The notes below the pieces were generated by a model that saw only the letters and a list, made by a program, of their open reading frames with translations, was not told the origin of the DNA and did no database searches. DNA of 64,000 nt from Gammaproteobacteria bacterium (GTDB lineage: Bacteria > Pseudomonadota > Gammaproteobacteria > Steroidobacterales > Steroidobacteraceae): NCBI GenBank assembly GCA_021773365.1, contig JAJFKF010000150.1, positions 1-64,000 on the forward strand, in the 5' to 3' direction. Both the position numbers and the translations under genes were made by a program. Shown here in pieces: positions 7,601-26,599 of the stretch; the first letter of the stretch is position 1, and every line of letters starts with the position of its first letter.

Positions 7601-8023
7601 CGTACTGGTAGCTGCAACGTCCTGCTGGACGTCATCTTCCACTGCCGTCGCGAGCCGCATCTGATCCGCTGGATGCCCCGCAACCCCCGCCGACTCAGAC
7701 TCAGACAATATAATCGCGCCACTCGGCGTCGTGGAATAATTCAGCCCGGTGTCTTTCAGCAGTTGAGACAGCGCCGCCAGAGGATCGAGACTTCCCTTCA
7801 CGCCCGCCGTTTTCTTATTCGCCACCAGCTGCGTCGTATACAGAATTTCCTTCTTGGTTTGCCGAGTGAATTCGCTTAGGGCCGAAGACAGCGCCTGCGC
7901 ATTGATGTTGAACGACTGCTCCGGTCGCTGCTCCGCAGCCCGCGCCTCCGGCATTCCCGCCACCGACACGCTTACCACGCCTACCACAAGGCTTGTAGCG
8001 GCTGCTCTAATTAGATGTTTCAT
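4697..8023 (-). CDS. TonB-dependent outer-membrane receptor with N-terminal STN signalling domain
   Basis: The protein has 1108 residues. A signal peptide ends near residue 29 (ARA-AEQ). An STN (secretin/TonB short N-terminal) domain lies at about 37-107 (FNINAQALSSALSEFTRQT). The plug begins around 170-190 (FQVFDARDIELSG), with VFLLDGRRMP and the plug element GVINIITRQDF near 300, followed by a long beta-barrel ending in MQMRKDFGQ. The start is preceded by an AAGGGGGGG ribosome site. STN domains relay substrate binding to a periplasmic FecR, which matches the fecR-fecI pair directly upstream on the same strand. The substrate is unknown; candidates are a siderophore, peptide or glycan oligomer. 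The 77-bp gap to fecR holds a promoter-like element. Confidence 0.93.
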   Translation of the reverse strand: MKHLIRAAATSLVVGVVSVSVAGMPEARAAEQRPEQSFNINAQALSSALSEFTRQTKKEILYTTQLVANKKTAGVKGSLDPLAALSQLLKDTGLNYSTTPSGAIILSESESAGVAGHPADQMRLATAVEDDVQQDVAATSTKKKVDVVVEGQRDRPAPFSTANLDLTRTEDDALPFQVFDARDIELSGASDLQEFLQNRLPQNFTSDVLDELDGSGTSPSARTGQVDLRGWGAVETVFLLDGRRMPAHYQQLDSDTSNATPNLRGIPLGSIERIEILSSAGSAIYGVSATGGVINIITRQDFKGGQVGVNYETPSDAHAPRRGVNLSYGLPLPLGFGLRLGVSYSDSEPLSAGDRAAVSIARWRRLALERVPAQVVNQVSGNPFLTSSRVYGATPNVRSITTTGNLFSDLPGAQASNYTTVPAGSSGSNSLSAYQPGVWNLDLAEGAAGDSLFAKGSTLGTANSSRVLNLGLDRNVGEHWRWSLDVRHTETESEGRTSGASTFTSANSLSTGPHVPADAPTNPFNQPVQVRLVDPNLDRPELRNWPRNVSWELNSTLRGALGQWRGFLDVSYANNRYLSLSSAFVEPNGGWTAAFLSGAYNPFVDPRVAAPAVSSFYEQYIAERILFSSATRTYQSALKAAGPLLSLPAGTLQLTAGVDASRTDRYRSEWFGQYQDGLTGQPRVPVGSASDVAIPLIGNPNLRFVFDSYAGYAEATMPLLSAMQGIPLVERLELFGSGRLDRMVGAGFRSQSIAAQRAGVPPEPVKYTTTSRLYAFGLRYEPVEGIAFRATQSIGFKPPGISQITPAASPPTFTTTGLTDPVRNEGVTLLPSMYITGGNPDLMPETTNSTNFGFIFTPRRVPGLRLSMDYLESVRDDAIFSLGAQDAINLESELPGIVQRGAPDGHPSGVGEIAFVDRRFVNFRQIASRSMDFSVEQRLENIVGGRLVLTAAATRNISFKVQLTNTGPAVEQVRNPAGAFSQQIAWNGNAQVRWEGPQWSVGWSVRYFDYLLVPQPVANPTQWFLLQGGDRAPRALNHDLNVNYRAPAVQNSRGLQGLLSGTSLTFGVKNVFDRTPRFWAPSTDRGVAPYDSILGRSVWMQMRKDFGQ

Positions 8024-8051
8024 CGCTGCCCCCCCTTAGGATAACCCTTAA

Positions 8052-8087
8052 GGACTACGACGCGGCTCTTCAGAAAAGGGGAACTCC
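8052..8087 (-). promoter_or_regulatory. Putative ECF-sigma (FecI) promoter of the TonB receptor
   Basis: Read toward the receptor, the element carries GGAGTTCCCC, then about 15 bases, then CGTCGTAGTCC. This has the layout of an ECF promoter, with a GGAAC/GTTCC-type -35 and a CGTC-type -10. A near copy lies in opposite orientation at 9733-9768, on the other side of fecIR. The two differ at only a few positions, which supports a shared regulator, most simply the FecI encoded between them. No transcript data are available. Confidence 0.45.
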
Positions 8088-8100
8088 AATGACAAATTAA

Positions 8101-9117
8101 CTACTGACGCGCCCGCAGCGTGATCCCGCGTCGATCCAAACGCGCCACTTCAACCGGAAAATACACCATCACCGCCTCAACAAACGCCTGTGTCTTGCCC
8201 GTGGCAAATGCTCCGCTGACCTTCAACTTCTCCAATTCCGGGCTATCCAATGAAATCCTCTGCTCCGAATAGCGGTTCATCTCCGCAATCGCCTCCGACA
8301 AGGCCGTTTCCTCAAAGATCACCCGCCCCTCACGCCAGCTGATAGCGCGTTCCACACCCGCACTGCCAATGGCTCGCGGCGCTGGATCGGGGGAGGAGTG
8401 TCCGACGGAAAGCTGATCGCCCGCCTTGATGAGCACCGCCTCTGCTCCGGCTGTGCCAGCCGGCACCTTCACCGACCCCTCCACCATGGTCACCTGCACC
8501 CTCTCTCCATTCACCCGGACATCAAATGCCGTTCCCACAGCGATGAACTGACGCCCAGCCGCTTCAACAATGAACGGACGTCGAGGATCTTTGCTAACCT
8601 CAAACAGGGCCTGCCCTTCCTTCAGAACCACCCGCCTTTCGTCGGCAGAAAATGCCGTCTTGATGCGCGTTTGCGTATTCAGTGTCATCTGCGACTGATC
8701 CGGAAGTACGACCTGAATACGTTCCCCGATCTCGGTGGAGTAGCGGCCCTTGCCCGCCATCCATCCCGGCATATCCATAACCATCGCCAACCCCACCGCG
8801 CCCGCCATTACAACCGCAGCCACGGCGACGCGAAAGGAAGCCCGGCTCCAGCGGCCGTTCCGCTGAGTGAGCTCGATTGCCACTTGATGACGCAGCGCCA
8901 GAATGTGCGGATGACTCGCCGCCTGCTGAACGCTGCCCTGCGTCCGCGCTACAGAGTCATACGCTTCCCTGTGCCCCCGGCTCTCTGCCAGCCAGCGCTG
9001 AAAGTTTGACTGAACATCACCTGATACCTTGCCCCCGTTCATTTCGGTATACCACCAGGACGCCGCCTCCCGGAGCGAGGCGCCACGGAGCTCGACAGAG
9101 CTTTCAGGAGCGCTCAT
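8101..9117 (-). CDS. FecR-family anti-sigma/sigma-regulator
   Basis: This is a 338-residue inner-membrane regulator. Its N-terminal DUF4880-type cytoplasmic segment (ASWWYTEMNGGKVSG, FQRWLAESRGHREAYDSV) binds the sigma factor. A transmembrane helix follows (VAVAAVVMAGAVGLAMVM), then the periplasmic FecR core (LPDQSQMTLNTQTRI, LFEVSKDPRRPFIVEA, AVGTAFDVR) and a C-terminal part (WREGRVIFEE, AIAEMNRYSEQRISL) that contacts the receptor STN domain. The ATG at 9117 was chosen over the one at 9138 because GGAG sits 7-8 bases before it. The gene overlaps the end of fecI by 14 bases, so the two are translationally coupled. Confidence 0.92.
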   Translation of the reverse strand: MSAPESSVELRGASLREAASWWYTEMNGGKVSGDVQSNFQRWLAESRGHREAYDSVARTQGSVQQAASHPHILALRHQVAIELTQRNGRWSRASFRVAVAAVVMAGAVGLAMVMDMPGWMAGKGRYSTEIGERIQVVLPDQSQMTLNTQTRIKTAFSADERRVVLKEGQALFEVSKDPRRPFIVEAAGRQFIAVGTAFDVRVNGERVQVTMVEGSVKVPAGTAGAEAVLIKAGDQLSVGHSSPDPAPRAIGSAGVERAISWREGRVIFEETALSEAIAEMNRYSEQRISLDSPELEKLKVSGAFATGKTQAFVEAVMVYFPVEVARLDRRGITLRARQ

Positions 9118-9685
9118 GACGCTTCTCCATATCTTCATTCAGCGCTTCAAGCGCTTTGGCCATGTGTTTCTTGACCGACCGCACCGAGAGATTCTGCAAA
9201 CGTCCGATGTCCATATATTTCAGTCCTTCGAAAGTGCTGAGTATGTATACCTGGCGGGTCCGATCCGGGAGTCTGCGTAAGGTGGCGGCGATGATGTCTA
9301 TCGCCTCCCGACTGATCAAAACGCGCTCGGGCGAGAAGTCGGAATCGACCTCATCACGTTCAGTGATCTCGCCTAAACGATGGTCGATGACGCGCTCCCG
9401 TACTTCTTCTCGACGCCTGTAGTCCCGAAGCGTGTTCGACGCCGTCTTGAAGATATAGGCGTCCGGATTCTCGACCGTATCCTTGTCCAGATGTTGTGTC
9501 AGGCGCATGAACACCTGCTGGACCAGGTCGTCTACCTCGGAACAGTTCTGTGTGCGCTTGCGGAAGAATGCCCGCAACGGGTTGTAATACTCGCGCACGG
9601 CGGCTTCCAACCGGCCAGGAAGGATCGAGGACCTAGCTTTTGCGTCTTTGGCCATAAGGTTACGCCCCGACGATGGCCCAACCAC
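9104..9685 (-). CDS. FecI-like ECF RNA polymerase sigma factor
   Basis: The 193-residue protein has sigma region 2 (YYNPLRAFFRKRTQN, VDDLVQQVFMRLTQH, NPDAYIFKTASNTLRDYRRR) and region 4 (LRRLPDRTRQVYILSTFEGL, YMDIGRLQNLSVRSVKKHMA). The predicted start is GTG 9685, with AGGAG seven bases upstream; an internal ATG at 9655 is an alternative. It should transcribe the adjacent receptor gene when FecR releases it after substrate binds the receptor. Gene order fecI-fecR-receptor on one strand is the classic arrangement. Confidence 0.93.
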   Translation of the reverse strand: MVGPSSGRNLMAKDAKARSSILPGRLEAAVREYYNPLRAFFRKRTQNCSEVDDLVQQVFMRLTQHLDKDTVENPDAYIFKTASNTLRDYRRREEVRERVIDHRLGEITERDEVDSDFSPERVLISREAIDIIAATLRRLPDRTRQVYILSTFEGLKYMDIGRLQNLSVRSVKKHMAKALEALNEDMEKRHERS

Positions 9686-9732
9686 GCGGCTCCTGCAAGC
9701 GGTTTTACACCCTGAATAACTATATTTCGAGA

Positions 9733-9768
9733 GGGGTTCCCCTTTTTTGGAGAGCTGCGTCGTAGTCT
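9733..9768 (+). promoter_or_regulatory. Second ECF-promoter-like element, facing away from fecI
   Basis: The element reads GGGGTTCCCC, then TTTTTTGGAGAGCTG, then CGTCGTAGTC on the plus strand. It is a close match to the element before the receptor gene but faces right, into the accessory island, where no plus-strand gene starts until 10578. Either it drives an unannotated transcript or its original target gene was displaced when the island arrived. Confidence 0.4.
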
Positions 9769-9850
9769 AAATAAGGGATCATTTTTAGCCCCGGGGTGAG
9801 GCCTTTGGTCACTCTTTATATCAATTTCAGCAGCACGCTGAATACATGCA

Positions 9851-10468
9851 TCAATGGAACTGAACATACTGTTGGCTCTTCACGTTGCGTCGCCCAGGTC
9901 CGCGCACAAGCGCCGGATTGCGCGATGCCGCAGGCATTCCATGGCCGGAAGATCGGCCTTCCAACAGGCCAGCAGCCAGTCGCGCCAGAATTGCGCGTCG
10001 TCCTCCCAACGGAAGCGCGGTTGCCCTGCACGGGCGAGCCTGTGGCACGCTCATGGACGCGAACGACGCGGCGGCCGCCGCGTCCACGCCAAACATCATC
10101 TGTGCCGTGGTGCGATCGGCCTCGGCAAACTGCCGCGCAGTCAGCAGCGTATCGAGCAGCAGATCCTCGCAGGAGTCGCGCGGCGCCAGACGCACCGTCT
10201 CGGTCGCCTCAATGAGTCGCAGGTCCAAGATGAGAAAGGGAAACTCCGCGGCGCGGGCCTGCGCCTCCACATCGATTCGGCCCCACAGATCGCGGTTTCG
10301 GGCCAGGAAAGACGCTGTGACAGAAGCCCCGCCCTCGATGGCGCGCAGACACAGCCACCCAATCCATTGCACGTTGTACTCTCGCGCCCGCTCGATGGAC
10401 GACAAGCCGACCCAGCGCGGCGGGACAAAGCCAGATTCACTACTCTCGTCAGCCTTAACGGTTTCCAT
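9851..10468 (-). CDS. FlhD-like transcriptional regulator, probably frameshifted near its end
   Basis: The start is ATG 10468, with GGAGG six bases upstream, giving 205 codons. A unique N-terminal part (RWVGLSSIERAREYNVQWIG) is followed by a stretch resembling FlhD: LLLDTLLTARQFAEADRTTA, then QMMFGVDAAAAASFASMSVP, comparable to FlhD segments around LLLAQRLIxxDRASAMFRLG and LTLPQ. After MSVPQ the annotated frame becomes low-complexity. Skipping one base near 10039 opens a convincing continuation (LARAGQPRFRWEDD, FWRDWLLACWKADLPAMECL) ending at TGA 9882-9880. A single-base insertion or sequencing error is therefore likely. The FlhC-like partner is encoded divergently 109 bp away. Confidence 0.6.
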   Translation of the reverse strand: METVKADESSESGFVPPRWVGLSSIERAREYNVQWIGWLCLRAIEGGASVTASFLARNRDLWGRIDVEAQARAAEFPFLILDLRLIEATETVRLAPRDSCEDLLLDTLLTARQFAEADRTTAQMMFGVDAAAAASFASMSVPQARPCRATALPLGGRRAILARLAAGLLEGRSSGHGMPAASRNPALVRGPGRRNVKSQQYVQFH

Positions 10469-10577
10469 GCGCTCCTCCACGAACGTCGAGGCGCGCATTG
10501 TCCACGAAGTGAATAGGAGTTGACGAATCAATTTTCCGGTTACTTTTGGCAGAAACCTCGACCCAACAGGAGGATCC

Positions 10578-11084
10578 ATGGAAGTTACAGTGGGGGATGT
10601 GAGATACGACCGCTATCACCGGCGCATCAACACCGGTATTCGTTTGATGTCGCATGGCGCGCGGGCACAAGTGGCGAGCGCCTTAAGCGAGCTGACCCTC
10701 GATCAGCTGAGCACCTTGCGGAAACGCTGGATGTGTGGCGCCGATGATGGCCCGCGGGGGCCTGCGCCAAGCTCTTACCTGCCGTTCTTCAAGTCGGAGG
10801 AGCGGTCAAGCCACGCCGCGATCTTCGTCGGCATCTACCGCGCCATCGGTGGGTACCTGAAGAAGTCAGTCCTGGAGGCCGCGGAATGCTTCTGCACCGC
10901 CTTTGAGATTTACCGGGCGTGGGAACCGCGTGCCGTCCTGGAGTTCGACCAGTGCGTGCTGCTCGGTCACGGTGCCGCCAAGGGGGATGAGGTTGAGCTC
11001 ATGCGCTGTGCGGGGTGCCGCTGCGCGCTAGTGGTGGACAAGCTCAGGATTGCGCAGTTGCGGTGCGGGGAGTGCCGGGAGTGA
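10578..11084 (+). CDS. FlhC-like transcriptional activator
   Basis: The 168-residue protein resembles FlhC throughout: an N-terminal helix (IRLMSHGARAQVASALSELT), a central GPAPSSYLPFF segment, SSHAAIFVGIYRAIG, and a C-terminal zinc site with two CxxC pairs (CAGC and CGEC). AGGAGG lies six bases before the ATG. In SXT/R391-type elements and IncC plasmids, FlhDC homologues (SetCD, AcaCD) switch on transfer genes. With the FlhD-like gene opposite, this pair likely had such a role here, although no target transfer genes remain in view. No flagellar gene is nearby. Confidence 0.75.
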   Translation: MEVTVGDVRYDRYHRRINTGIRLMSHGARAQVASALSELTLDQLSTLRKRWMCGADDGPRGPAPSSYLPFFKSEERSSHAAIFVGIYRAIGGYLKKSVLEAAECFCTAFEIYRAWEPRAVLEFDQCVLLGHGAAKGDEVELMRCAGCRCALVVDKLRIAQLRCGECRE

Positions 11085-11161
11085 ATCTGAAAGAGTATCT
11101 CCTGGCGCAGCTCAACTTGCCCGACGATGAGGGCGCGGCGCTTCGGCGTGCGTTGGCGCGG

Positions 11162-11431
11162 CTACAGCCGCCGGGGTAGTCTGTCGGCGATGAACAGCGA
11201 CAGCAGCCCGTAGTACAGGAACAGGACGACACCGAACCCCAGCGACATACCGGCGATCTGGAGGAAGGGGAAGCGCGGGCCGACGGCTGACAGCTCGAAG
11301 AGGACGGCGGCCAGGACGCCGAGCACCATGGCGCCTGCGCAGAGGGTGCGGACGAGGGGTTCGAGCAGCACCAGGACGGTGCCGATGGGGGCGCGCAGGA
11401 TGTGCCAGCCGATAAGGACCGCCCTATTCAT
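11162..11431 (-). CDS. Small membrane protein coupled to csrA
   Basis: The 89-residue protein has two or three hydrophobic segments ([59 protein letters not shown]) and a basic end (DRLPRRL). Its ATG at 11431 lies inside the final codons of csrA, an 8-base overlap, so it is probably translated by re-initiation. Function unknown; the conserved-looking pairing with csrA suggests a joint role within the element. Confidence 0.7.
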
Positions 11432-11603
11432 GGGCGGCCTTTTCCATCTGGATGCGCTCGTAGACTTCGTGCCTATGCACGGGAATCTCCCTGGGGGCCT
11501 CCACGCCAAGGCGCACCTGGCCGCCCTTTACGTCCAGAACGGTCACGGTGACATTGGTTCCGATCATTACGATTTCGCCGAGACGGCGTGTCAGTACGAG
11601 CAT
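11424..11603 (-). CDS. csrA: CsrA/RsmA-type RNA-binding regulator (59 aa)
   Basis: The translation starts [20 protein letters not shown] and contains [20 protein letters not shown] followed by EVYERI, the signature of CsrA, including the N-terminal MLVLTRR strand and the GVxAPxxIxVHRxE core that bind GGA-containing RNA. An ideal GGAGGA site precedes the ATG. It is shorter than 60 residues and so easily missed by ORF callers. Sitting inside an accessory element beside FlhDC-like regulators, it is probably an element-borne paralogue of the host regulator rather than the housekeeping copy. Confidence 0.92.
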
Positions 11604-11702
11604 TGAGGATTCCTCCGTGAGTCGCTGAGAATCTGCTACCTTTAGGCAGTCTACCGGTAACTGCGTAGCCTCTCAAGTAGCCTCCCTTTAGGGTGGCTGC
11701 CG

Positions 11703-11927
11703 ATGAAAAGCCACGCCCTCCAGAAACGCATCGGTAAAGCCGTCCGCACCCGCCGGGAAGCCCTCGGAATTAGCCAGGAAGCCTTCGCCGACCAGATCAA
11801 AATGCACCGGGCCTATTATGGCGCGTTGGAGCGCGGGGAGAAGAATCTCCAGCTCTCCACCCTGGAGCGCGTCTGCGCCGGATTGGGGAGCAGGATGGCG
11901 GAAGTGATCGGGGATGCGGAAAGGTAG
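11703..11927 (+). CDS. XRE-family helix-turn-helix regulator
   Basis: The 74-residue protein is a single Cro/CI-type HTH: RIGKAVRTRREALGISQEAF, then the recognition helix region (MHRAYYGALERGEKNLQLST) and LERVCAGLGSRMAEVIG. It lies divergent from csrA and upstream of the HerA operon. It could repress itself and the element genes around it. A heptamer repeat follows immediately after its stop. Confidence 0.85.
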   Translation: MKSHALQKRIGKAVRTRREALGISQEAFADQIKMHRAYYGALERGEKNLQLSTLERVCAGLGSRMAEVIGDAER

Positions 11928-11928
11928 C

Positions 11929-11970
11929 TGAGGGGTGAGGGGTGAGGGGTGAGGGGTGAGGGGTGAGGGA
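11929..11970 (+). repeat. Heptamer tandem repeat GGGGTGA, about five to six copies
   Basis: Directly after the XRE stop codon the unit GGGGTGA is repeated head to tail. The 7-bp unit shifts the frame with each copy and is purine-rich on the plus strand. Such slippage-prone tracts vary in copy number between strains. It lies between the regulator and the HerA-NurA-methyltransferase operon. Confidence 0.9.
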
Positions 11971-12235
11971 TAAAGGACTTGGACAAGAGACCGGGAATCA
12001 CCCCACCAATAATCCCTCTCATGCATATAAATCTCAAGACTGATCGGCAGGCGCTGGCCGATTTCGACCCAGTTCTGACAGCGGACTGGTCCAAGTTGAG
12101 TGGCACAAAGCCGACGATCGTCTCGGCACGAGTATGCGTCAGCCGATTTCCGGTCCGTGCAGACGCGCGTATTTGGGTGGACGGCAGGTGGCCGGGCGGG
12201 CATCCTAACCGGATAATTGTCGGGGAGAGGGATAG

Positions 12236-14347
12236 ATGGACATCGTATCGAAAGTGTCGAAAACGCTAGCCGATGAGCTGGCGCCGGACTTGGCGCAAGC
12301 TGGCGAGCGGCTGACCGAACTACTAGACGCTGCCGCTTACGTCGGCGACGTTTATTCGCTGTCCTACGCCGAGACTCTAGTTCAGATTCACGACCACTAC
12401 CGCGCGAAGGTCGGCGGCGTCCCCGCGTTGTCTTTCCTGCTAGCAAGCCGCATCCAGCCGGCCGGGAAGACCGACGTGCGCGAAGAAGATTCGTCGGTTC
12501 TGCTGCTTCGTGTCCTGGACCATTCCGACCTGCCCAACGCAGCGGAGGCGCTACGTGTGCGCGTCGAGACGGCGCAGCGCGTGAGTGGCGAGGTCAAGAC
12601 GCACTGGGACGACAAGTCGGTGATGGATCCGACGACACACAATCTTTTGAGCTATGCCGGCGTGCGGTGTCGCGTACTCGGCACGTTCTACGTCGAGCAG
12701 TTGGCGGATCAGTACGCGCTGATCTTCGGATCCGATATCAGCAACTACTACCCGAACCGCGGCCTGAAAGTGTACAAACCCCGCGCTGACGTGCTCGCGC
12801 GTATCGTGAACTATCGTGATCCCCGCGACCCGAAGAGTTACGACCCGAGTGCGCAGGTGACCATTGGCGAGGTCCGATACGCCTCCACGAACCGTCCGTT
12901 CCAAATGATTTCGGATGTGTCCGTTGCAATCGCCCCGCGTGACCTACTGGGACAGAAGACTGCGCTGTTCGGCATGACCCGCACAGGCAAATCGAACACG
13001 ACGAAGATCATCCTGAAGTCGATATTCGAGCTGCGCTGGCGCAGTTCGAGTGAGCGGATCGGCCAGCTCGTGTTCGATCCGAACGGCGAGTACGCTAACG
13101 AAAACACCCAGGACGCGACAACGAAGGCGAAACAACCGACCGCCATCAAGAACGTGTGGGCCTGTGGCCCCACTGACAAACACGCGCAGCTCAAAAGCGA
13201 CGTGGTCACGTACGGAATCATGGCGCACCCACATGATCCAGAGCGCAGACTGATGCTGCTCAACTTCTACATGGATGCCAACCTCGAGATTGGAAAGAGC
13301 ATAATCGAAGCTGCACTCGCACCAGATCGCGGCTCCAAGTACATCGGAAACTTCTGCGACGTTCGCCTCGAAGCACCCGAGAGAACCGACCGCTCGGCAA
13401 CGAAGCGTCATGATCGGCGCGTGCTTGCGTACCGCGCGCTGCTGTTCAAGGCAGGCTTGGCGCCGCCCGCTTCCATGAAGCCAACGACCGGGGGGCTGTT
13501 CAACAAAGACCTGCTCGCAGCTCTCGCCGCCCCCCAGGGAAAGGACGAAGCGGCCTATCGGTCGTGCGGCGTCATCCTCGCCAAGAAGAATCCAGGCTGG
13601 GCCGAGCTTACGCAGGCGCTGGCGACACTCCGTGAATTCATCTTCGATAACACGTCGGCCTGGGGAGCCTTTGACCAGGAGTACGTACAGACCAGTTCGT
13701 CGGGCTCGTGGGCGGACGATGACTTCCGCAAGATTCTCGAAATGTTCGCGTACTCGAATGGCTCGCGCCTGATTGGCCGCGTCAAGACGCAGCACACCGC
13801 TGATACGAGCACCGACTACGCCGACGACATCTACCTCCAGCTGGCCGAAGGCAAGCTCGTCATCGTGGATCAGTCGAGCGGCGACCCGCAGCTCAATAAG
13901 GCGGCGGCTGACCGCGTAATGTGGAAAATTTTCGAACGGAACCAAGAACTATTTCGTACTGCTCAGGCGCCACCGAACATTCTCGTATATCTGGAAGAGG
14001 CGCACAACATCTTGCCGGCGTCGAACGAGCAAGATTTCTCCGACATCTGGGTGCGCACAGCCAAGGAAGGTGCGAAGTACAACATCGGGCTGGTCTACGC
14101 AACCCAGGAAGTCAGCACGATCCAGAAGAACATCCTGCGGAATACGGCGAACTGGTTTATCGGTCACTTGAATAACTCGGACGAGACCAGGGAGCTACGG
14201 AAGTTTTACGACTTCGCCGACTTTGAGGCCAGCATCCTGCGGGCGCAGGACAAGGGCTTCTTGCGGGTTAAGACACTTTCGAACCCATACGTCGTGCCCG
14301 TTCAGGTATCGCTGTTCTCCATTACGACGACCTCGCCGGTGGCATGA
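12236..14347 (+). CDS. HerA-like hexameric DNA translocase/ATPase
   Basis: The 703-residue protein has an N-terminal HAS-barrel-like part, a Walker A motif [12 protein letters not shown] at about residues 247-258, Walker [10 protein letters not shown] at about 582-590, and a downstream sensor YATQEVS. This is the FtsK-HerA layout. HerA forms a hexamer that pumps DNA into the NurA nuclease, and the next gene encodes NurA, only three bases after this stop. A GGGGAGAGGG ribosome site precedes the ATG. With the methyltransferase third in the operon, the set looks like a defence module with self-marking rather than archaeal-type end resection. Confidence 0.9.
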
Positions 14348-14350
14348 GCG

Positions 14351-15703
14351 ATGCCATACGAAAACGAATTCGCGGGCTACCGCTCATTGCAGCGCCTCGC
14401 TGACTCGGAGCGCGTCAAGCAACTGCTGTCGCGCTCTAGGGTGCAAGCCACCCCCGATCGGTCGGCGACCAATCCTCCGAAGGCGGCGCCGACTTTCTCC
14501 GGTACGATGCCGGAATTCGTGGTCGCAATCGACGGGAGCCAAGCAGAAGTCGATGTGAAGAACGGCTACCCCGGCGCAAAGGTTGGGTATCTGAGTGTAG
14601 CAAGCGTGCTGCTGGACCTAGCTGCAATCGATGCTCTCGATGAGCAGCGGCCGGCCGACCCGGCGGAGTTCCGTAAGACAGAGCAGGCCGCTACTATCGA
14701 CGCAGCACTGCCGGGTAGCAATGTTGTAACGCGCACGCACGCGTCGGCACGAGTCGCGTTCCGGGAAGAGGTCTATGATGTTCTACACAACAGCATTGTG
14801 GACGTGGAAGACCGCACGCCGCTGCTTGACACTTACGAGGCGCTACTTGCACTAAAACCAACTGCCCGCGAGCAGGCGTGTCCATACCGAGAGGACAGCG
14901 GTTGCTCCGAACACTTCTCGGTGCCAGCAGGACTGACGAGCTGCCCATGCAGCGAACATCGGCCGATCTGGTCGACTGACGCACTTCGCAGCCATGAATC
15001 GTTTCGGGACTCGGGTACCAACGGCGAGGCGTACGGCGAAGTGATGCAAGTGTGGGAGCGAGTCTTGCTCATTCATCTTCTGCGTGCGTTTGAGCGGCGG
15101 AACTTGCTCGGGCGCGTCCACCGGCTCGCGTTCTTCCTAGACGGCCCGCTAGCGCTGTTCGGACATCCCGCGTGGTTATCCGCAGCGATTTCATCGGAAT
15201 TAAAGCGGCTGAATGCAAAAGTCCGCGCTTCGACGGGGCAGGACATCATCATCATCGGCATCGAGAAATCTGGGCAGTTTGTCGCGCACTTCGAAGAACT
15301 TGACCAAGCTGAGGCTCCTGGCTCGGTACGGTTCAATGCGCGCGACTACTTGTTGTTGACCGACAGCTACATCAAGGAGCGAGTGATCTTCTCGAACTCG
15401 CAGAAGAGGTACGGTCTGGATACATATTTTGGGCGCAAGCTTTTCTACAAGACGCAGAGCGGCGCAAGAATCGTTGCGAGCATTCCGTTCCTCGACGATC
15501 AGCAGGACACTCTCGCCACCAATGACAGCTCGCTCTATCCAGTCCTGCCGGTCACGTTCGCACTGCTGGACAAGCTGGTGTGTTCACGGTTCCCCAATGC
15601 AATGGCACCTATCGTCTCCGCCCATGCTCAGGCGGCAATCCCATTGACTTTGGGAGCGAAGGTTCTAGAACAGCTTGCCAAAGCACTGATGCGAGGTACG
15701 TAA
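14351..15703 (+). CDS. NurA-family 5'-3' nuclease
   Basis: The 450-residue protein has the NurA hallmark FVVAIDGSQAEVDV at about residues 56-69, where the Asp binds catalytic manganese, followed by YLSVASVLLDL. A second acidic region DGPLALFGHPAWL near 265 and a C-terminal SAHAQAAIPLTLGAKVLEQL with the expected His near 430 complete the nuclease. A cysteine-rich insert at about 177-200 (CPYREDSGC, TSCPCSEH) looks like a metal-binding knuckle. The gene starts three bases after HerA and ends three bases before the methyltransferase, a tight operon. It is expected to cut DNA fed by HerA. Confidence 0.85.
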   Translation: MPYENEFAGYRSLQRLADSERVKQLLSRSRVQATPDRSATNPPKAAPTFSGTMPEFVVAIDGSQAEVDVKNGYPGAKVGYLSVASVLLDLAAIDALDEQRPADPAEFRKTEQAATIDAALPGSNVVTRTHASARVAFREEVYDVLHNSIVDVEDRTPLLDTYEALLALKPTAREQACPYREDSGCSEHFSVPAGLTSCPCSEHRPIWSTDALRSHESFRDSGTNGEAYGEVMQVWERVLLIHLLRAFERRNLLGRVHRLAFFLDGPLALFGHPAWLSAAISSELKRLNAKVRASTGQDIIIIGIEKSGQFVAHFEELDQAEAPGSVRFNARDYLLLTDSYIKERVIFSNSQKRYGLDTYFGRKLFYKTQSGARIVASIPFLDDQQDTLATNDSSLYPVLPVTFALLDKLVCSRFPNAMAPIVSAHAQAAIPLTLGAKVLEQLAKALMRGT

Positions 15704-15706
15704 GTC

Positions 15707-16822
15707 ATGGCGGGGCCTGCTGCCTATGACACTCCAGCGCGCCGCTGGGCGGGCTTTGGCCCGTACTATGCAATGTTTCCGACCGAGTTTGCAGACCAAG
15801 TGATTCGCAAGCACTCGGACGAAGGCGACCTGGTGCTCGATCCGTTCGCGGGACGCGGCACGTCAATTTTCAGCGCGGCGACACAGAAGCGAAGGGCTGT
15901 CGGAATTGAAATTAGCCCCGTTGGCTTCCTATATGCGCGGACAAAGCTACGGCCCGCCGAGAAAGAATTGATTCAGCAGCGTATCAAGGCCATCGGTAGG
16001 AAGGCTGCAAGCAGGACAATCGCAGAAGCGGCAAGTGACCTCCCGGAGTTCTTTACTAGGTGCTTCTCAGTTAATGTGCGGCGCTTCCTAGTCTCTGCCC
16101 GCCGTCATCTCGCCTGGCGCAGTTCTAGCATCGACCGGACGACGATGGCAATGATCCTCGTTTACCTCCACGGCAAAAGGGGCGCGGCACTGTCGAATCA
16201 GATGCGCCAAACGAAGTCCATGTCGCCCGACTACGCAATCCGGTGGTGGGATGAGCGCGGCTTGTCACCACCGGAGCTTGACCCAGTAGCGTTCTTCGAC
16301 TCTCGATTGAACTGGCGCTACGCACGCGGAACGCCAGATTGCGAGCAGTCGTCGGTATATCTCGGCAACAGCTTGCAGCTACTACCGCGCCTCGCCCTCC
16401 GGACGAAGCGCGGAGATTTGCCCAAGGCCAAATTGCTGTTTACCTCACCGCCGTACTATGGAGTGACCAACTATCACTACGACCAGTGGTTGCGTCTGTG
16501 GCTGCTCGGTGGGCCGCCGGGTGCGGAGCGCAGCGGCAACGGTCGATGTGGAAAGTTCGAGCATCGGGAGAACTACAAGGCGCTGCTGGAGCAGATATTC
16601 CGGCATGCGAAGGGCGTGATGCATCGCGACGCTGTCGTATACGTGCGCACTGATGCACGGAAGTTCACCCGCGACACCACCATCGACGCGCTGCGCAGGA
16701 CGTTTCCAGCAAAATCGTTGTCGATTCGGCGACGCCCAATCGAAGGCCCAAGTCAGACTCATCTCTTTGGCGACTTCGGTGAGCGAGTCGGGGAAGTCGA
16801 TCTTGTTTTGCAGCCGAAGTGA
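15707..16822 (+). CDS. DNA methyltransferase (N6-adenine or N4-cytosine type)
   Basis: The 371-residue protein has a SAM-binding motif DPFAGRGTSIFSAATQ at about 45-60 and, far downstream at about 245, the catalytic SPPYYGVTNYHYDQW. The order (SAM motif first) combined with SPPY is the reverse of the usual beta-class order and implies a permuted layout. The start YDTPARRWAGFGPYYAMFPT and the lack of an obvious separate recognition domain resemble stand-alone modification enzymes in defence clusters. The likely job is marking host DNA so that HerA-NurA spares it; this is inference from the operon. Confidence 0.85.
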   Translation: MAGPAAYDTPARRWAGFGPYYAMFPTEFADQVIRKHSDEGDLVLDPFAGRGTSIFSAATQKRRAVGIEISPVGFLYARTKLRPAEKELIQQRIKAIGRKAASRTIAEAASDLPEFFTRCFSVNVRRFLVSARRHLAWRSSSIDRTTMAMILVYLHGKRGAALSNQMRQTKSMSPDYAIRWWDERGLSPPELDPVAFFDSRLNWRYARGTPDCEQSSVYLGNSLQLLPRLALRTKRGDLPKAKLLFTSPPYYGVTNYHYDQWLRLWLLGGPPGAERSGNGRCGKFEHRENYKALLEQIFRHAKGVMHRDAVVYVRTDARKFTRDTTIDALRRTFPAKSLSIRRRPIEGPSQTHLFGDFGERVGEVDLVLQPK

Positions 16823-17113
16823 GCCCTCGTGCATCCGGTTCGCAACTGACTCTCCAATGAATGGACTTGTCTTTCCAGAACCCGCCAATTATGGCTGGCA
16901 GCAAATGGTCGAACCAGACGTTGCACATCGAACATCATCTGAGGCTTCACCTAATCGGCCGGCGTGGCGGTTTCTCCCGGCATGCACCGGAATCTATTAC
17001 CACATATAAACCGCCCCCGGTATTAGGGCCACATCTTCCAGTTTTTTAATCTGGCACCGCCACCCGTATTAGCCGAACCTCCTCGCCACACTTAACCACA
17101 AGGATTCCGGGTC

Positions 17114-17722
17114 ATGCGTGTCGAGAATCGTAAAAGAAACGAGACGTCGACCAGCCACCCCCGGCCCCGTGTCGCGCTCTCTCCCTGGGTCAACGAACGT
17201 TGTCCGCCCATCCATGACATTCTGAGCGCGCACGACGTGGCGCGGCTGACCCGCCGGCCACGGTGGGTGCTGGTGGGGCTGTGCCTTGTGGGCCGCTTTC
17301 CGAAGAAGGCGCGGTTTCGTGGTCGGGCGCTGGGGTGGCGGCGGACGGAAGTGTTGGAGTGGATGGCGCATGGGTTGGCGTTACGGCCTGAAGACAACAC
17401 GCGCGCCGATACGCACCGCCGCGCCGGGCAAATGCCTCTGCCGCTGCGCCACCAAGAACCCTGTTCTGCGCATCGAACGAAGCGTTTCAATCCGTCATCC
17501 ACACACAGCCACTCTTCGAACAAGGGAATCGCAATGAAGCTGCTAAGAGCAAAGGAAGTAGTCAAGGCGACCGGTCTTTCGAGAATGACCATCTGGCGAC
17601 TGGAGAAGGACGGCAAATTTCCCGCCCGCCGGACGCTAGGAATGAATTCCGTAGCCTGGCTGGAAGATGACGTAAATACCTGGATCGCATCGCGGCCGGC
17701 AGTACAGCCACGGCCCGCCTAG
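17114..17722 (+). CDS. Two AlpA-type DNA-binding domains in one frame
   Basis: The 202-codon frame holds two excisionase/AlpA-like winged helices. The first is ILSAHDVARLTRRPRWVLVG through GWRRTEVLEWMA (about residues 35-85). The second is MKLLRAKEVVKATGLSRMTI through NSVAWLEDDVNTWIASRP (141-198). The linker (about 90-140) is low in hydrophobics and looks like untranslated spacer. The second domain has its own ATG at 17534 and at 62 residues matches normal AlpA length. Either this is one tandem regulator or two genes whose intervening stop was lost. AlpA proteins control integrase expression or excision of prophage-like elements. Confidence 0.65.
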   Translation: MRVENRKRNETSTSHPRPRVALSPWVNERCPPIHDILSAHDVARLTRRPRWVLVGLCLVGRFPKKARFRGRALGWRRTEVLEWMAHGLALRPEDNTRADTHRRAGQMPLPLRHQEPCSAHRTKRFNPSSTHSHSSNKGIAMKLLRAKEVVKATGLSRMTIWRLEKDGKFPARRTLGMNSVAWLEDDVNTWIASRPAVQPRPA

Positions 17723-17831
17723 ATGTGACACGGATCAAGATCCTCAGCCAAAACGCTTGCAGGAGTTCACAGAAGAGCCAGATATCGGCGCGTAAAGTGA
17801 TCGAACTCTGACGATGTGGGGTGCAGGGATC

Positions 17832-19451
17832 ATGGCTAAGAAGGCCGCAGCAGCCAAAAAGACTGAGAAGAAAAAGGTTGTTCCTCTAACAATTATCCTC
17901 CTAAAGGAGGAAGTGACCGAACATGACGCTCTTGATCCGCTTGCAGAGGGGGGCGTCAAAGCGCTGACAATTGAGCTTGACGATAAGAAGATAGGAACGT
18001 TGTCCATCAAGCAAACACCCGAACACCCACCAAGCTGGACGAAATTCTTTGCCGAAGCCGCAGACCTGAAGAAGCGCAATGTCCGCAGCGCTTCAGTATC
18101 TGCCGTTTTTCTTACACATGCATCTGGCCGACTGTTCGCGGTTTCTTTTGGGCACGGACGGCACCTGCTTAATCCCAACGGGATTGAGGAGCGCTTCGGT
18201 TTGCGAGTTACGCTCAACTCTGTCAACCCGGACGAGCTTCGGAGTGTCGATGTAACCACACTGGACGCAAATCCAATACACGGAAAGAGACAACCCTCCC
18301 AAGCCGCCCCACTCGGCGACTTCGGCCTCAATTTGGATCAGGATGTATTGCGTGGCGTCACAGGAAAGCCCATCGAGGAAAGCCTTGCGACACAGATGAC
18401 AGGAGCGGATTCGCTGTCCGTCCGTGTTCGCACCGATCTACGTGGCCTGCAAAAACTGCTATCCAAGTACCTGGCAAAAAGCAAGGAAGATAAATACAAA
18501 GAACGATTTTCGTGGATAGATCATATTGCCGAAGTGCGAGATGCGGCGTTAAAGCAGAAACTGTTCAACAAGCTCGTTGACGAGCTTGGAGCCGGACAGT
18601 CAAACGTATGGGCTGCAATTCCTGTTGTAATCGACTGGACTAGCTTTGACCACTTCCGGTTCGGGACGTTTCACTCCGAAATTGAGCACGACGACGTTAC
18701 TCTCGGGCGATTGCTAGACGCGCTCGGTGATGGGACACCCACGCTCGACTTACTCAAGCGCAAGCGCGTGTTCTGCATTTCGAAGGGCAGCGCGCAGCCG
18801 GTAATGGAATGGACGTTCCTGGACTGCTTAACAGCGGATATATCGCTCGATGGCGAAAGTTATCTATTGAATTCGCGCGTCTGGTACAAAGTAGATGCAG
18901 ATTTTGCGGCTAAAGTGAGAGCGGACATCGACGAGATACCGCAAGCGTCCCTCAAACTGGGAGATTGGGGCGATGAGACCGAGGCTGCTTATAACATTCG
19001 AATCGCGGCCAAGAGCGCCGGAAAGTTCCATCTAATGGACCGTGTCATGGTAATGCACCCCGGAATGGCCAGTCCGGTTGAGTTCTGCGACCTATTTTCA
19101 TCGTCAGGGGAAATGGTGCATGTTAAGCGTTACGGCCAATCCAGTGTACTCAGCCATCTGTTTGCTCAAGGTACCGTAGCCGCCGATGCCGCCTTGTCGG
19201 ATGCTGACTTCAGGAATGCCGTAAATCAAAAGCTTCCAGCAACCCACCGCTTCCAAGACCCAAAGGTTCGAATTGACCCAGAAGAGCATGAGGTTTGTTT
19301 CGCCATTGGCAGCTCACAACCCGGGCCTTTGAAGCTACCATTCTTTAGCCAAGTCACGCTCAGAAATGCATATAGGAGATTGCGATATGCGCTTGGCTAT
19401 CGAGTTTCACTAATGAAGGTTACTGTGAGTAAGCTCACTGATGTCAATTGA
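17832..19451 (+). CDS. TIGR04141/DUF6119-family sporadically distributed protein
   Basis: The protein has 539 residues from ATG 17832 (MAKKAAAAKKTEKKK), chosen because AGGGA precedes it. Family features are visible in order: a lysine-rich start, SAVFLTHASGRLFAVSFGHG, HLLNPNGIEERFGLRVTLNS, SQAAPLGDFGLNLDQDVLRG, ADSLSVRVRTDLRGLQKLLS, WIDHIAEVRD and, later, GESYLLNSRVWYKVDADF. The biochemical role is unknown; members are scattered across genomes and usually lie in defence or mobile regions. The gene is clearly more AT-rich than its neighbours, which points to separate acquisition. Confidence 0.8.
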   Translation: MAKKAAAAKKTEKKKVVPLTIILLKEEVTEHDALDPLAEGGVKALTIELDDKKIGTLSIKQTPEHPPSWTKFFAEAADLKKRNVRSASVSAVFLTHASGRLFAVSFGHGRHLLNPNGIEERFGLRVTLNSVNPDELRSVDVTTLDANPIHGKRQPSQAAPLGDFGLNLDQDVLRGVTGKPIEESLATQMTGADSLSVRVRTDLRGLQKLLSKYLAKSKEDKYKERFSWIDHIAEVRDAALKQKLFNKLVDELGAGQSNVWAAIPVVIDWTSFDHFRFGTFHSEIEHDDVTLGRLLDALGDGTPTLDLLKRKRVFCISKGSAQPVMEWTFLDCLTADISLDGESYLLNSRVWYKVDADFAAKVRADIDEIPQASLKLGDWGDETEAAYNIRIAAKSAGKFHLMDRVMVMHPGMASPVEFCDLFSSSGEMVHVKRYGQSSVLSHLFAQGTVAADAALSDADFRNAVNQKLPATHRFQDPKVRIDPEEHEVCFAIGSSQPGPLKLPFFSQVTLRNAYRRLRYALGYRVSLMKVTVSKLTDVN

Positions 19452-19509
19452 ACATGGATTCGTACCGCGATCGAATCTATCAGGCTCTTGAATTTTATCT
19501 GGGATATCC

Positions 19510-20724
19510 CTAACGAGCACCAGCGATCCTGGCCTCGGTTCGATCAAGATCCTGCGCCACAGCGAGCGCCCAATCCTTCCATTCCTTCAGCGCCGCTGTT
19601 TGTTCAACGGCAAGCGCCCGCGCCTGTGCATCGATGTGTCGCACGTAAGCCCGAATCTTTCGAGCTTCGAGCCATTGGGAAGCCTCGGCGAGCAATGCAT
19701 TCCGCCGCTTCTGCTCCTCCGCCACTTTCCGCTCCCGCTCAAGCCGGAGTCGCTCTGCCTCTGCCCTCCGGCGCTCGCTCTCTTCCCATTCACGGCGCCT
19801 TATCTCGGCTGCACGCGCCCTATGCCAGCACTGGACAACCTGCCTGTGAATGGCGATGAACACTCGGTTCAACATGGAATCGAGTTTTCCCCTCTCTGAG
19901 TCCTCGAAGGTCCGCGACTCATCGAGGGTGATCCGTAGCCGTCCGGTTGGAACCAAATAGTTCTGCGCCTCCATAGCACCGTCATATCGACGGCGCTGGC
20001 GTGTCTTTCGCTCAAGTTGCTCGGTAATGCGAAGCCGAATTTCTGCCTGATGCCCAACCAGCATCACTTCTCCGCTCGGACTGTCACACAAGTCGAATCC
20101 CCGCACCGTGGCCGCCGAGGCAATGGCATTGAGGATCGCCAATGCCCGTTCATAAGCGCCCAGGGACGCGGCGATCACCGTCCGGCCGCGGTCATTGCCA
20201 ACACGCTGGCCACGATCCTCTCGCGAGGCCCAGTACGACCCTTCCGAATTGCTTTGGATACCGCGCAGACGATCCGAGAGTTTTTCGTACCGCTCGTTGG
20301 CTTTCTTCGAGGCCAGGAGCTTCTTCGCTTCTGCCCGAATCCTGTCCCGGTGGGGGCGGACCACGGGATGCCAGCGCGAAGGCGCGGGCTCCACAACGAT
20401 CTGGTTGTCGGGCTGGTCCTCGAAGGCGATCCGCTGCGCCAGCCATGGAGCATCCTCGGGTTCCGCGAAACGCTCCTGCTTCGGCGGCGGATGGCTGAGG
20501 TAGGTCGTAAGATCCGCCTTCGCCGGTAGCGGCGGCTGGTATACCCGCTTCCCCACCGCCACCTTGGCCCAGTGGCCAGCGGAAGGCAGGGGAATCTTCA
20601 TGGCCTTGCAGATTTTCCGGATTCCGTTGTCCGAGAGACCGTACTTTTCACCGAGCTTGGTCAGCGGGGTCTGCCAAACCTCCGTATAAAGCTCCTCGCG
20701 CTTGAACTCGACTGGCACCTGCAA
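19510..20724 (-). CDS. Uncharacterised element-associated protein with HTH-like start and coiled coil
   Basis: The 404-residue protein begins FKREELYTEVWQTPLTKLGE followed by KYGLSDNGIRKICKAMKIPL and AGHWAKVAVGKR, which looks like a short HTH with a conserved GHWAK tail. The centre is mixed alpha/beta, and the last third (about 310-370) is a highly charged coiled coil rich in Arg and Glu (ESERRRAEAERLRLERERK). I recognise this N-terminal pattern from uncharacterised proteins in integrative elements but can name no function. It is convergent with the TIGR04141 gene, 58 bp apart. Confidence 0.7.
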   Translation of the reverse strand: MQVPVEFKREELYTEVWQTPLTKLGEKYGLSDNGIRKICKAMKIPLPSAGHWAKVAVGKRVYQPPLPAKADLTTYLSHPPPKQERFAEPEDAPWLAQRIAFEDQPDNQIVVEPAPSRWHPVVRPHRDRIRAEAKKLLASKKANERYEKLSDRLRGIQSNSEGSYWASREDRGQRVGNDRGRTVIAASLGAYERALAILNAIASAATVRGFDLCDSPSGEVMLVGHQAEIRLRITEQLERKTRQRRRYDGAMEAQNYLVPTGRLRITLDESRTFEDSERGKLDSMLNRVFIAIHRQVVQCWHRARAAEIRRREWEESERRRAEAERLRLERERKVAEEQKRRNALLAEASQWLEARKIRAYVRHIDAQARALAVEQTAALKEWKDWALAVAQDLDRTEARIAGAR

Positions 20725-21304
20725 ATCTCCCTCAATCGGATGCGTCGATTCTAAGGCGTCTCAGGAGGTCCCACGTTGTATCATGCGCGCGCAATCCGGA
20801 GTCGCACCGAGCAGCGCGCGACGGACATGGGGTACCGGTGGGGGTACGGGGAATTTTCGAATTGCCAAATTCCTTTTTGGTCAAACTCTTATCGGTATCC
20901 GTTGGATGCCGACCTCGGCACCAGAGGACCTTTTCATCGAGTTTCAGCGCGTAACACAAAATAACAATGGCTGCGCTTTTTATTCGGCTTTTATAGGCTT
21001 TCCCTGCACTGGCTGCATCACGTCATCTCGTGACAGCTTAAATCCGGACCGGGTAACTTCCTGGGTAACTCGTCGCGGACAGACCATTTTTCGGAAAAGT
21101 TACCCAGGCACGATAGAGAAGGATTTCAATGCCTCTCACCGATACTCCAATTCGCCTGGCAAGAGCCCGCGAATGGTTTGAACTGCAAGCACGCCCCCGT
21201 CAAATTCAGACCGCGCTCCCCGTCCATCTCATCCTCCGGAGTGGACAACCTTGCGCTGACCTGCCGACCGGTACTAATCTGCGTGGCGCTACCCGTTCAA
21301 TCCA
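20725..21304. other. Intergenic right shoulder of the island
   Basis: This is 580 bp without a supported gene. The first part is moderately AT-rich and encodes nothing recognisable in six frames. An inverted repeat built on CCTGGGTAACT lies at 21060-21108. The last 100 bases lead to the second fecI start and should hold its promoter, which I could not assign. A missing integrase gene would be expected in this position for an element edge. Confidence 0.5.
21060..21108. repeat. Inverted repeat CCTGGGTAACT ... AGTTACCCAGG
   Basis: Perfect 11-bp arms at 21060-21070 and 21098-21108 flank 27 bases. A further direct copy of GGGTAACTTC lies just left at 21051-21060. The arrangement resembles recombinase arm sites or an operator at the end of an element; no protein partner is known in the window. 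Confidence 0.55.
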
Positions 21305-21868
21305 ATGACAACCTGGCGAAAATCAAACCGATCTGCCGCGACTGCGCTGCCTGACATTGCACAGGATCCGGCGGCGTTCCTGACGGACCTGGACTGCCGT
21401 TATCGCCGGCCGCTGATCTCGTATTTCGACAAGCGCATCCGCGAAGCCTACGACGTCGAGGACCTGGTGCAGGAAGTCTTCACTCGTCTTGCACGTCGCG
21501 CGGCTTTCGACAGGATCGACTACCTGGAGGGTTATGTCTTCCAGACCGCAGCCAACGTCATGCGCGACCGGCTGCGGCGCCGGCTCGCGCGCCATGCAGC
21601 CGAGCATGACAGTGTCGAAGACTCCGTTCTGCCCGCCGACGATCTGTCTCCTGACCGCGTCCTGCAGGGCAGGCAGCTCCTGGCCCGGGCCATCGAGGCC
21701 TTGCAGGAGTTGCCGGCGCGTATGCGGCAGGTGTTCGTACTGCGCTGCTATGAAGGAATGAAACAGGAGGAGATTGCCACTCACCTGGGCCTGAGCGTCA
21801 GTGGCGTGCGCTTTCACCTGAAGGAGGCCAAGGCACGGCTGATCCGGGTACTGGAGCAGGACGCATGA
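21305..21868 (+). CDS. FecI-like ECF sigma factor
   Basis: The 187-residue protein has region 2 (DCRYRRPLISYFDKRIREAY, VEDLVQEVFTRLARR, YLEGYVFQTAANVMRDRLRR) and region 4 (LQELPARMRQVFVLRCYEGM, QEEIATHLGLSVSGVRFHLK). It overlaps the following fecR by four bases (ATGA). It heads a one-strand run of genes continuing to the M28 peptidase and probably activates the receptor gene in response to its ligand. Confidence 0.93.
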   Translation: MTTWRKSNRSAATALPDIAQDPAAFLTDLDCRYRRPLISYFDKRIREAYDVEDLVQEVFTRLARRAAFDRIDYLEGYVFQTAANVMRDRLRRRLARHAAEHDSVEDSVLPADDLSPDRVLQGRQLLARAIEALQELPARMRQVFVLRCYEGMKQEEIATHLGLSVSGVRFHLKEAKARLIRVLEQDA

Positions 21869-22947: not shown

Positions 22948-23075
22948 GGCGGGCCTGGCGCGACGCCGGTTTACTGTCACTTTCCCAATCCCCTGCGTCT
23001 TACCGGATGAGGGCAGGCGCGTTCGAATCGCCGCCCATCGCACGTGTACGGCGAAATCATTCGAGGGGGACAGCC

Positions 23076-26570: not shown

Positions 26571-26599
26571 GTCACATGGCAGCCGGCAGGATTGACGTC

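Follow-up and report, generated by a model that had tools for sequence, protein, structure and literature searches.

A HerA-NurA-DNA methyltransferase operon of a gammaproteobacterium as a candidate restriction-modification-like defense module

Introduction

Which function is served by an operon that joins a HerA-type translocase and a NurA-type nuclease to a DNA methyltransferase? The question is raised by positions 12236-16822 of contig JAJFKF010000150.1 (assembly GCA_021773365.1, a gammaproteobacterium of the family Steroidobacteraceae), of which the first 64,000 nucleotides, hereafter the window, were analyzed. An original prediction, made from the DNA letters, had proposed the three genes as a candidate restriction-modification-like defense system. 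Based on our analysis, we estimate a probability of about two in three that they form a restriction-modification-like defense module, in which HerA-NurA would destroy DNA without the methyl mark of the host, as a methylation-based cousin of the Tdp system.

Results

Sequence features of the three proteins

The three open reading frames (ORFs) lie on the plus strand, and three bases separate each stop codon from the next ATG; the ORF listing thus bears out the gene count and spacing given in the original prediction. The active-site motifs are intact in the translations of all three proteins ([30 protein letters not shown] and SPPY are present). The predicted Walker motifs of HerA, IDGS of NurA, and DPFAGRGTS and SPPY of the methyltransferase were all recovered, and Pfam confirmed the three families.

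The first gene (12236-14347) encodes a HerA-type DNA translocase/ATPase of 703 amino acids (aa), which matched PF01935 (DUF87/HerA central domain) at E 1.3e-11 and the PADLOC HerA model at E 3.1e-19. Its translation contains Walker A GMTRTGKS (12971-12994) and Walker [10 protein letters not shown] (13979-14005). Walker A residues G251-K252-S253 and the Walker B residues E587-E588 (EEAH) are invariant in all 68 aligned homologs.

The second gene (14351-15703) encodes a NurA-type nuclease of 450 aa with an RNase H-like fold (PF09376, E 2.3e-8, residues 57-429). The homolog alignment places Asp61 within the IDGS motif (14528-14539), and the likely catalytic positions D61, E236, D264, and K306 are invariant in 72 of 72 aligned homologs. 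The fold and the invariant acidic residues are those expected of a nuclease, as judged from sequence and model, and Asp61 is probably the counterpart of Asp49 in the T. kodakarensis NurA, as far as the available text describes the latter (PMC12977600). The cysteine knuckle named in the original prediction is real in the window (Cys177, 185, 198, and 200; 14879-14950) but partial in the family, as 55 of the 72 aligned homologs have at least four cysteines in this stretch and 17 have fewer. No PADLOC 2.0.0 model was found for the window NurA, and no NCBIfam model matched any of the three operon proteins at cut-off.

The third gene (15707-16822) encodes a DNA methyltransferase of 371 aa with motif I ahead of motif IV, matching PF01555 (N6_N4_Mtase) at E 1.1e-15 and PADLOC MTase_II at E 2.3e-18. 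The operon thus contains the DNA methyltransferase expected of a restriction-modification system, with both motifs intact. The family alignment locates motif I, which binds S-adenosylmethionine (AdoMet), at DPFAGRGT (15839-15862) and the catalytic motif IV at SPPY (16445-16456); D45, P46, F47, G49, G51, T52, and SPPY are invariant in 13 of 13 aligned homologs. Against solved structures, the family profile matched DNA methyltransferases, with 2zie best (E 1.4e-21) and the cytosine-N4 enzyme 8s9n at 1.6e-16. An SPPY motif IV is commoner in N4-methylcytosine (m4C) enzymes, although the product may instead be N6-methyladenine (m6A). The predicted model (mean pLDDT, the predicted local distance difference test, 79.1) had AviRa and Dam as Foldseek top matches and, by VIA, matched various methyltransferases of RNA and of small molecules at Z 15 to 18. 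Since many AdoMet enzymes match it about equally, the model does not tell the target base.

Relationship of HerA and NurA to TdpA and TdpB

When the HerA family profile was compared with solved structures, TdpA (8wet) was matched at E 1.4e-36, against 1.7e-18 or worse for other defense or repair HerA proteins; the single window HerA sequence matched TdpA at 5.8e-22 and the next protein at 4.3e-8. For NurA, the sequence search of the Protein Data Bank (PDB) left TdpB unmatched: the profile yielded three weak, unrelated matches (E 0.49-0.74), and the single sequence one at 0.81. The predicted NurA model (mean pLDDT 88.9) superposed on 8wfd_G of the TdpAB complex with Z 21.1 (root mean square deviation 4.0, 311 residues, 13% identity), compared with Z 14.7, 12.9, and 12.6 for the Sulfolobus, Thermococcus, and Deinococcus NurA folds, and two TdpAB chains also topped the Foldseek results. 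As TdpA is the best match of HerA by sequence and TdpB the best match of NurA by fold, both halves of the pair point to TdpAB.

The methyltransferase as a neighbor of the HerA-NurA pair

HerA-NurA loci were gathered from a species-genome collection by a NurA-anchored survey (a seven-row NurA alignment and one short peptide pattern), which gave at least 80 loci and is not a census; Streptomyces, Flavobacterium, and Halorubrum are among the strains named in its records. Further sources were a plasmid collection (five records), viral contigs (two loci), and, for HerA, two phage records. After duplicates and incomplete loci were taken out, 81 of 88 loci contained both HerA and NurA. Dropped before the counts were short pieces or the window's own copy (L001-L011, L020), duplicates (L017, L024, L081), loci with HerA absent from the stretch covered (L072, L076, L092, L095, L101, L102), and one with HerA and NurA both absent (L100). 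Near-identical loci remain among the 81 (L055, L057, and L060; L012 and L025). The locus genes are ORFs chosen by length rather than annotated genes, and the Dam-like and Septu families mentioned below were set by BLAST clustering, with Pfam or PADLOC run on some members.

A DNA methyltransferase was found within two genes of HerA-NurA in 71 of the 81 loci, on the same strand in 69 of them. By distance, methyltransferases made up 68 of 158 immediate neighbors, 8 of 149 genes two steps away, and 3 of the 783 genes at a distance of at least three steps. The gene arrangement is, by these neighbor counts, far beyond chance. All four genomes of the class that carry NurA of the window kind have a methyltransferase, which is window-type in the window and L017 and Dam-like in L018 (by Pfam) and L019 (by clustering). 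Together with the Septu genes of nine loci, the 71 pairs support the restriction-modification-like candidacy originally proposed, as a candidacy drawn from sequence and models and not as a function.

The distribution of the HerA-NurA pair is patchy. The 81 loci span 14 phylum names, one of them archaeal, with 14 loci in Cyanobacteriota, 13 in Actinomycetota, 11 in Bacteroidota, 8 in Pseudomonadota, 5 in Campylobacterota, and the others elsewhere; 14 of the 81, including the five plasmid records and the window, have no phylum name. With the window's own genome included in each count, 4 of the 369 class genomes have NurA of the window kind, and 2 of the 398 phylum genomes match the HerA clade at an E value of 1e-20 or below; the match outside the own genome is a partial one. 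Some HerA match (E 0.001) was present in 9 of 30 relatives, own genome included, the best outside it being partial (7.7e-13); no full-length HerA of the window kind was found in the 29 other relatives searched.

Counting the window's own genome, 12 of the 398 phylum genomes carry the window-type methyltransferase family. In the 12 stretches taken from the 11 other genomes, HerA was detected in one (L121, divergent) and NurA of the window kind in none; some of these stretches stop at contig ends (L110 spans 3,981 bases), and of the methyltransferase matches in genome G595 the second lies outside the sample. Plasmid relatives of the window methyltransferase adjoin a large AAA protein (Rhizobium, Bradyrhizobium) or a TnpB gene (Allochromatium). 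Since the family also lives apart from HerA-NurA, it is a modular methyltransferase that was recruited by the pair.

The exceptional stretch L121, from a genome of the window's class, encodes a window-type methyltransferase, a 381-aa protein, and the divergent HerA in a row (6282-10789, minus strand). Profile comparison ruled out the 381-aa protein as a NurA, and no Pfam family matched it either; the row is perhaps a further HerA system with a different partner.

Methyltransferase classes and co-divergence

The methyltransferases next to HerA-NurA fall into four types. In complete members of the window type (PF01555), motif I lies at about residue 50 and SPPY at about 250. The second type, also PF01555 and about 325 aa long, carries motif IV near the N-terminus, mostly as SPPF, with SPPY in L061 and L069; the PF01555 match runs straight through in the four members scanned. 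The third is Dam-like (PF02086), with DPPY in 12 of 13. The fourth, type III-like, is a PF01555 protein of 594-669 aa with DPPF, adjoining a ResIII and TnsA-like-domain protein in three cyanobacteria (Pfam was run on L087 only). In these three loci (L087, L090, and L091), a member of the L063-UvrD-like-helicase cluster, the type III-like methyltransferase, and the ResIII/TnsA-like protein lie directly 5' of HerA-NurA in the same direction, perhaps as two restriction units within one operon.

A HerA+NurA tree was built from 73 complete pairs, of which 12 were window-type, 37 second-type, 13 Dam-like, and 3 type III-like, and 8 had no methyltransferase. The class labels require nine changes on this tree, compared with a possible minimum of four and a shuffle mean of 33.1, although the number of swaps is approximate because it is a quick tree with long branches. 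These values point to a small number of class exchanges, with long inheritance of each class in between. As unlike classes share one tree, the trait that was kept is having some methyltransferase and not one in particular.

HerA and NurA distances were correlated with r 0.96 (73 pairs). The window-type methyltransferase followed closely, with r 0.96 to HerA and 0.97 to NurA (12 loci), and the Dam-like methyltransferase gave r 0.72 with HerA (13 loci). In the permutation test of the distance correlations, none of 2000 permutations reached any observed r.

Defense and mobile-element context

In nine Bacteroidota loci, a gene for a PtuA-like ATPase and then one for a PtuB-like HNH protein (Septu) lie directly 3' of NurA, which overlaps the downstream Septu gene by 4 bases in eight of the nine. 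In two loci scanned singly with PADLOC, E values reached 3e-257 for PtuA and 4e-115 for PtuB; the other PtuB assignments rest on clustering. A PtuA match was obtained for 8 of the 77 neighbors scanned with PADLOC, a tally made without a control set. The resulting five-gene operon, methyltransferase-HerA-NurA-PtuA-PtuB, is seen at L083:11149-14250 and in eight more Bacteroidota loci. L083 and L084 continue, within two bases, with genes for an HNH protein and a protein of 576/577 aa.

Adjacent to two Nostocales loci without a methyltransferase are AbiTii (L015) and DncV-like and SAVED genes (L037). Regarding mobile DNA, homologs were found on five plasmid records and in the prophage Vibrio phage 10N.286.55.C4_PE001, where an annotated integrase is followed by HerA and NurA, which face a Dam-like gene and an annotated excisionase. 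The NurA of this phage is 28% identical to that of the window (E 5e-45).

Surroundings of the window operon

Downstream of the operon, on the same strand, positions 17814-19451 encode a 545-aa DUF6119/TIGR04141 'sporadically distributed' protein (E 5.9e-141) with no PADLOC match. The C-terminal part of the ORF at 17114-17722 resembles, by eye, a short AlpA-type helix-turn-helix regulator, a kind common on integrated elements. G+C content is lower at 12000-20000 (0.53-0.60) than at 22000-26000 (0.64-0.67). Two similar genes at 26576-27949 and 30876-32285 look erythromycin esterase-like from their translations, judged by eye. Promoter-like and terminator-like sites were about as numerous as in shuffled sequences, and a search of 8500-22500 for direct repeats of the att type gave none that convinced.

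The region is flanked by divergent sets of sigma factor, FecR, and TonB receptor genes (4697-9685 and 21305-26570, by eye). The left TonB receptor had nine matches in its own genome at E 1e-100, itself included, and no relative outside that genome passed this threshold in the search with the flanking receptor; due to this, an empty site could not be demonstrated.

Discussion

Proposed mechanism

In the mechanism that we propose, the methyltransferase would mark host DNA at its recognition sites. A HerA hexamer and a NurA dimer, in a presumed 6:2 make-up, would form a translocase-nuclease that loads on DNA, and the DNA would be pumped through the HerA ring into the NurA active sites and degraded. 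The methyl mark would block loading or stall pumping, so that host DNA is spared; it might be read by the methyltransferase as a recognition subunit or by the HerA-NurA complex itself. By analogy, the module would work as TdpAB does, with phosphorothioation replaced by methylation; TdpAB acts against phages and is held back where self DNA is phosphorothioated. For T. kodakarensis, the available text of PMC12977600 describes HerA as stepping along duplex DNA and feeding NurA, and one NurA Asp change as abolishing cutting. Invariant motifs are retained in the window proteins where the equivalent sites should be. Since unlike methyltransferases serve one engine, a part for the methyltransferase in recognition appears likelier than reading of the mark by HerA-NurA alone.

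A broader interpretation, which we regard as tentative, is that the operon represents an unnamed and widespread class of restriction systems built on a single HerA-NurA engine, which takes up any available modification enzyme (m4C-like, m6A Dam-like, or type III-like), Tdp being the phosphorothioate version. As the engine is kept while the kind of modification enzyme changes, the enzyme and not the nuclease would supply self recognition.

Several observations weigh against the defense interpretation. No separate sequence-recognition gene that would account for the reading of sites was seen in the operon. In 10 of the 81 loci, no complete methyltransferase lies within two genes: five belong to one Nostocales group (L013, L014, L015, L034, L037), and the others are L059, L068, L031, L035, where HerA begins at the contig end, and L067, where a 205-aa PF01555 fragment adjoins HerA. 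As the Pfam tally of 80 neighbors covers 25 of the 99 families matched, a methyltransferase may hide there, and 10 proteins were therefore scanned singly. The original prediction had also raised the case of homologs occurring mostly singly. This does not apply to the HerA-NurA pair, with its 71 of 81 loci, but it does apply in reverse, as no HerA-NurA pair was detected in 10 of the 11 other genomes that carry the window-type methyltransferase family. Additionally, the second-type methyltransferase shows only a moderate correlation with the pair (r 0.52 with HerA and 0.56 with NurA, 36 loci). Finally, ICETh1 has the same three gene kinds by published annotation and serves DNA donation, and the loss of its methylase is described as having a minor effect there (PMC7767461).

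Alternative explanations

The ICETh1 example provides the main rival, a DNA-transfer module in which the HerA-like TdtA exports donor DNA that NurA trims, and the methylase serves to protect or mark the element. According to the available text, the ICETh1 operon of Thermus thermophilus HB27 comprises a type IIG enzyme, the NurA-like TTC1878, TdtA, and the PF01555 methylase TTC1880 (PMC5365140), and DNA donation is largely or wholly lost when tdtA or nurA is mutated (PMC5365140, PMC7767461). Both this composition and the mutants speak for transfer, as do the homologs on five plasmid records and one prophage. However, ICETh1 also needs the type IIG enzyme, and no further ORF near the 1,106 aa of that enzyme was found within 9,000-22,000 of the window. 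Replacement by Dam-like, second-type, or type III-like methyltransferases and the Septu junction also suit defense better, and we consider a transfer module unlikely. In tblastn searches of plasmids with the L121 HerA and the window methyltransferase, no Thermus was among the organisms listed (for the L121 HerA, 12 of 14 records were named).

A selfish or inter-element role, in which prophages and plasmids keep the module to exclude competitors or as an addiction device rather than for host defense, would fit the plasmid copies and the position between integrase and excisionase in the Vibrio prophage. Restriction-modification systems can indeed be addictive. Nevertheless, this explanation makes the same biochemical prediction as a defense module and differs in the beneficiary, and the genes next to the window operon include no identified integrase; we judge it improbable. 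The best-known role of the HerA and NurA families is end resection, as described in the available text of PMC9960219, and the pair could accordingly be a DNA-repair pair, as in archaea or Deinococcus, with a methyltransferase next to it by chance. The pair is, however, rare and patchy, and both proteins resemble TdpA and TdpB more closely than they do the HerA and NurA of repair. The neighbor counts led us to reject this explanation as very improbable, because a methyltransferase is far commoner next door than elsewhere in the same loci.

If the methylation-dependent defense module is confirmed, HerA-NurA, long studied in repair, will be tied to methylation-based restriction, and Tdp will become a member of a larger family. 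Unlike methyltransferases on one nuclease engine pose the question of whether the methyltransferase steers the engine. The Bacteroidota methyltransferase-HerA-NurA-PtuA-PtuB operons would offer a second case for layered defense.

Comparison with known systems

The closest comparators, TdpA-TdpB and the Thermus ICETh1 operon, were missing from the original prediction. Tdp (PDB 8wet, 8wfd, 8y1k) shares the HerA-type translocase, the NurA-fold nuclease, and, if the proposed mechanism holds, gating by a DNA mark, and provides the nearest solved homologs, rather than a demonstrated clade. It differs in that the window operon has a DNA methyltransferase where Tdp has phosphorothioation genes, and in that the window NurA, with 450 aa, exceeds the 358 residues of the solved TdpB chain.

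SIR2-HerA and DUF4297-HerA are anti-phage systems in which HerA is likewise the motor of a defense complex, and their PADLOC HerA models match the window protein. Their effector is SIR2 or DUF4297, whereas the window has NurA and a methyltransferase. We rejected membership in either system, as the partner is NurA and no SIR2 or DUF4297 match was found among the operon proteins (Pfam, E up to 1). As for MADS, the HerA gene, which alone was compared, matched PADLOC mad8 at E 9e-13, weaker than the HerA models.

The original prediction recognized no named system in the trio, and our searches agree. A named system with a HerA-NurA-methyltransferase make-up turned up neither in PADLOC 2.0.0 nor among the open-access papers listed, which is weak evidence of absence as subscription journals were outside the search. 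Open-access papers containing the words HerA, NurA, and methylation, as far as their available text goes, have the pair in references or among repair genes, or a lone HerA with BREX, and gave no prior art.

The HerA-NurA pairs of archaea and Deinococcus belong to the same two families and would share the pumping-and-cutting chemistry, but no methyltransferase partner is described in the available text of these reports (PMC12977600, PMC9960219), and they are more distant than TdpA and TdpB in sequence and fold. DndFGH and BRC (HerA/FtsK capture) likewise place a HerA/FtsK translocase in an anti-invader system but use other nucleases, and NurA is absent from the main text of both reports (PMC10853773, PMC12839542). 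The ICETh1 operon resembles the window operon in family annotation, with NurA, a HerA/FtsK-like ATPase, and a PF01555 methylase together (available text of PMC5365140), but NurA precedes the ATPase, a type IIG enzyme is added, and the known role is DNA donation. Among these systems, the window operon would be new in joining HerA-NurA translocase-nuclease restriction, a kind of restriction already known, to methylation instead of phosphorothioation.

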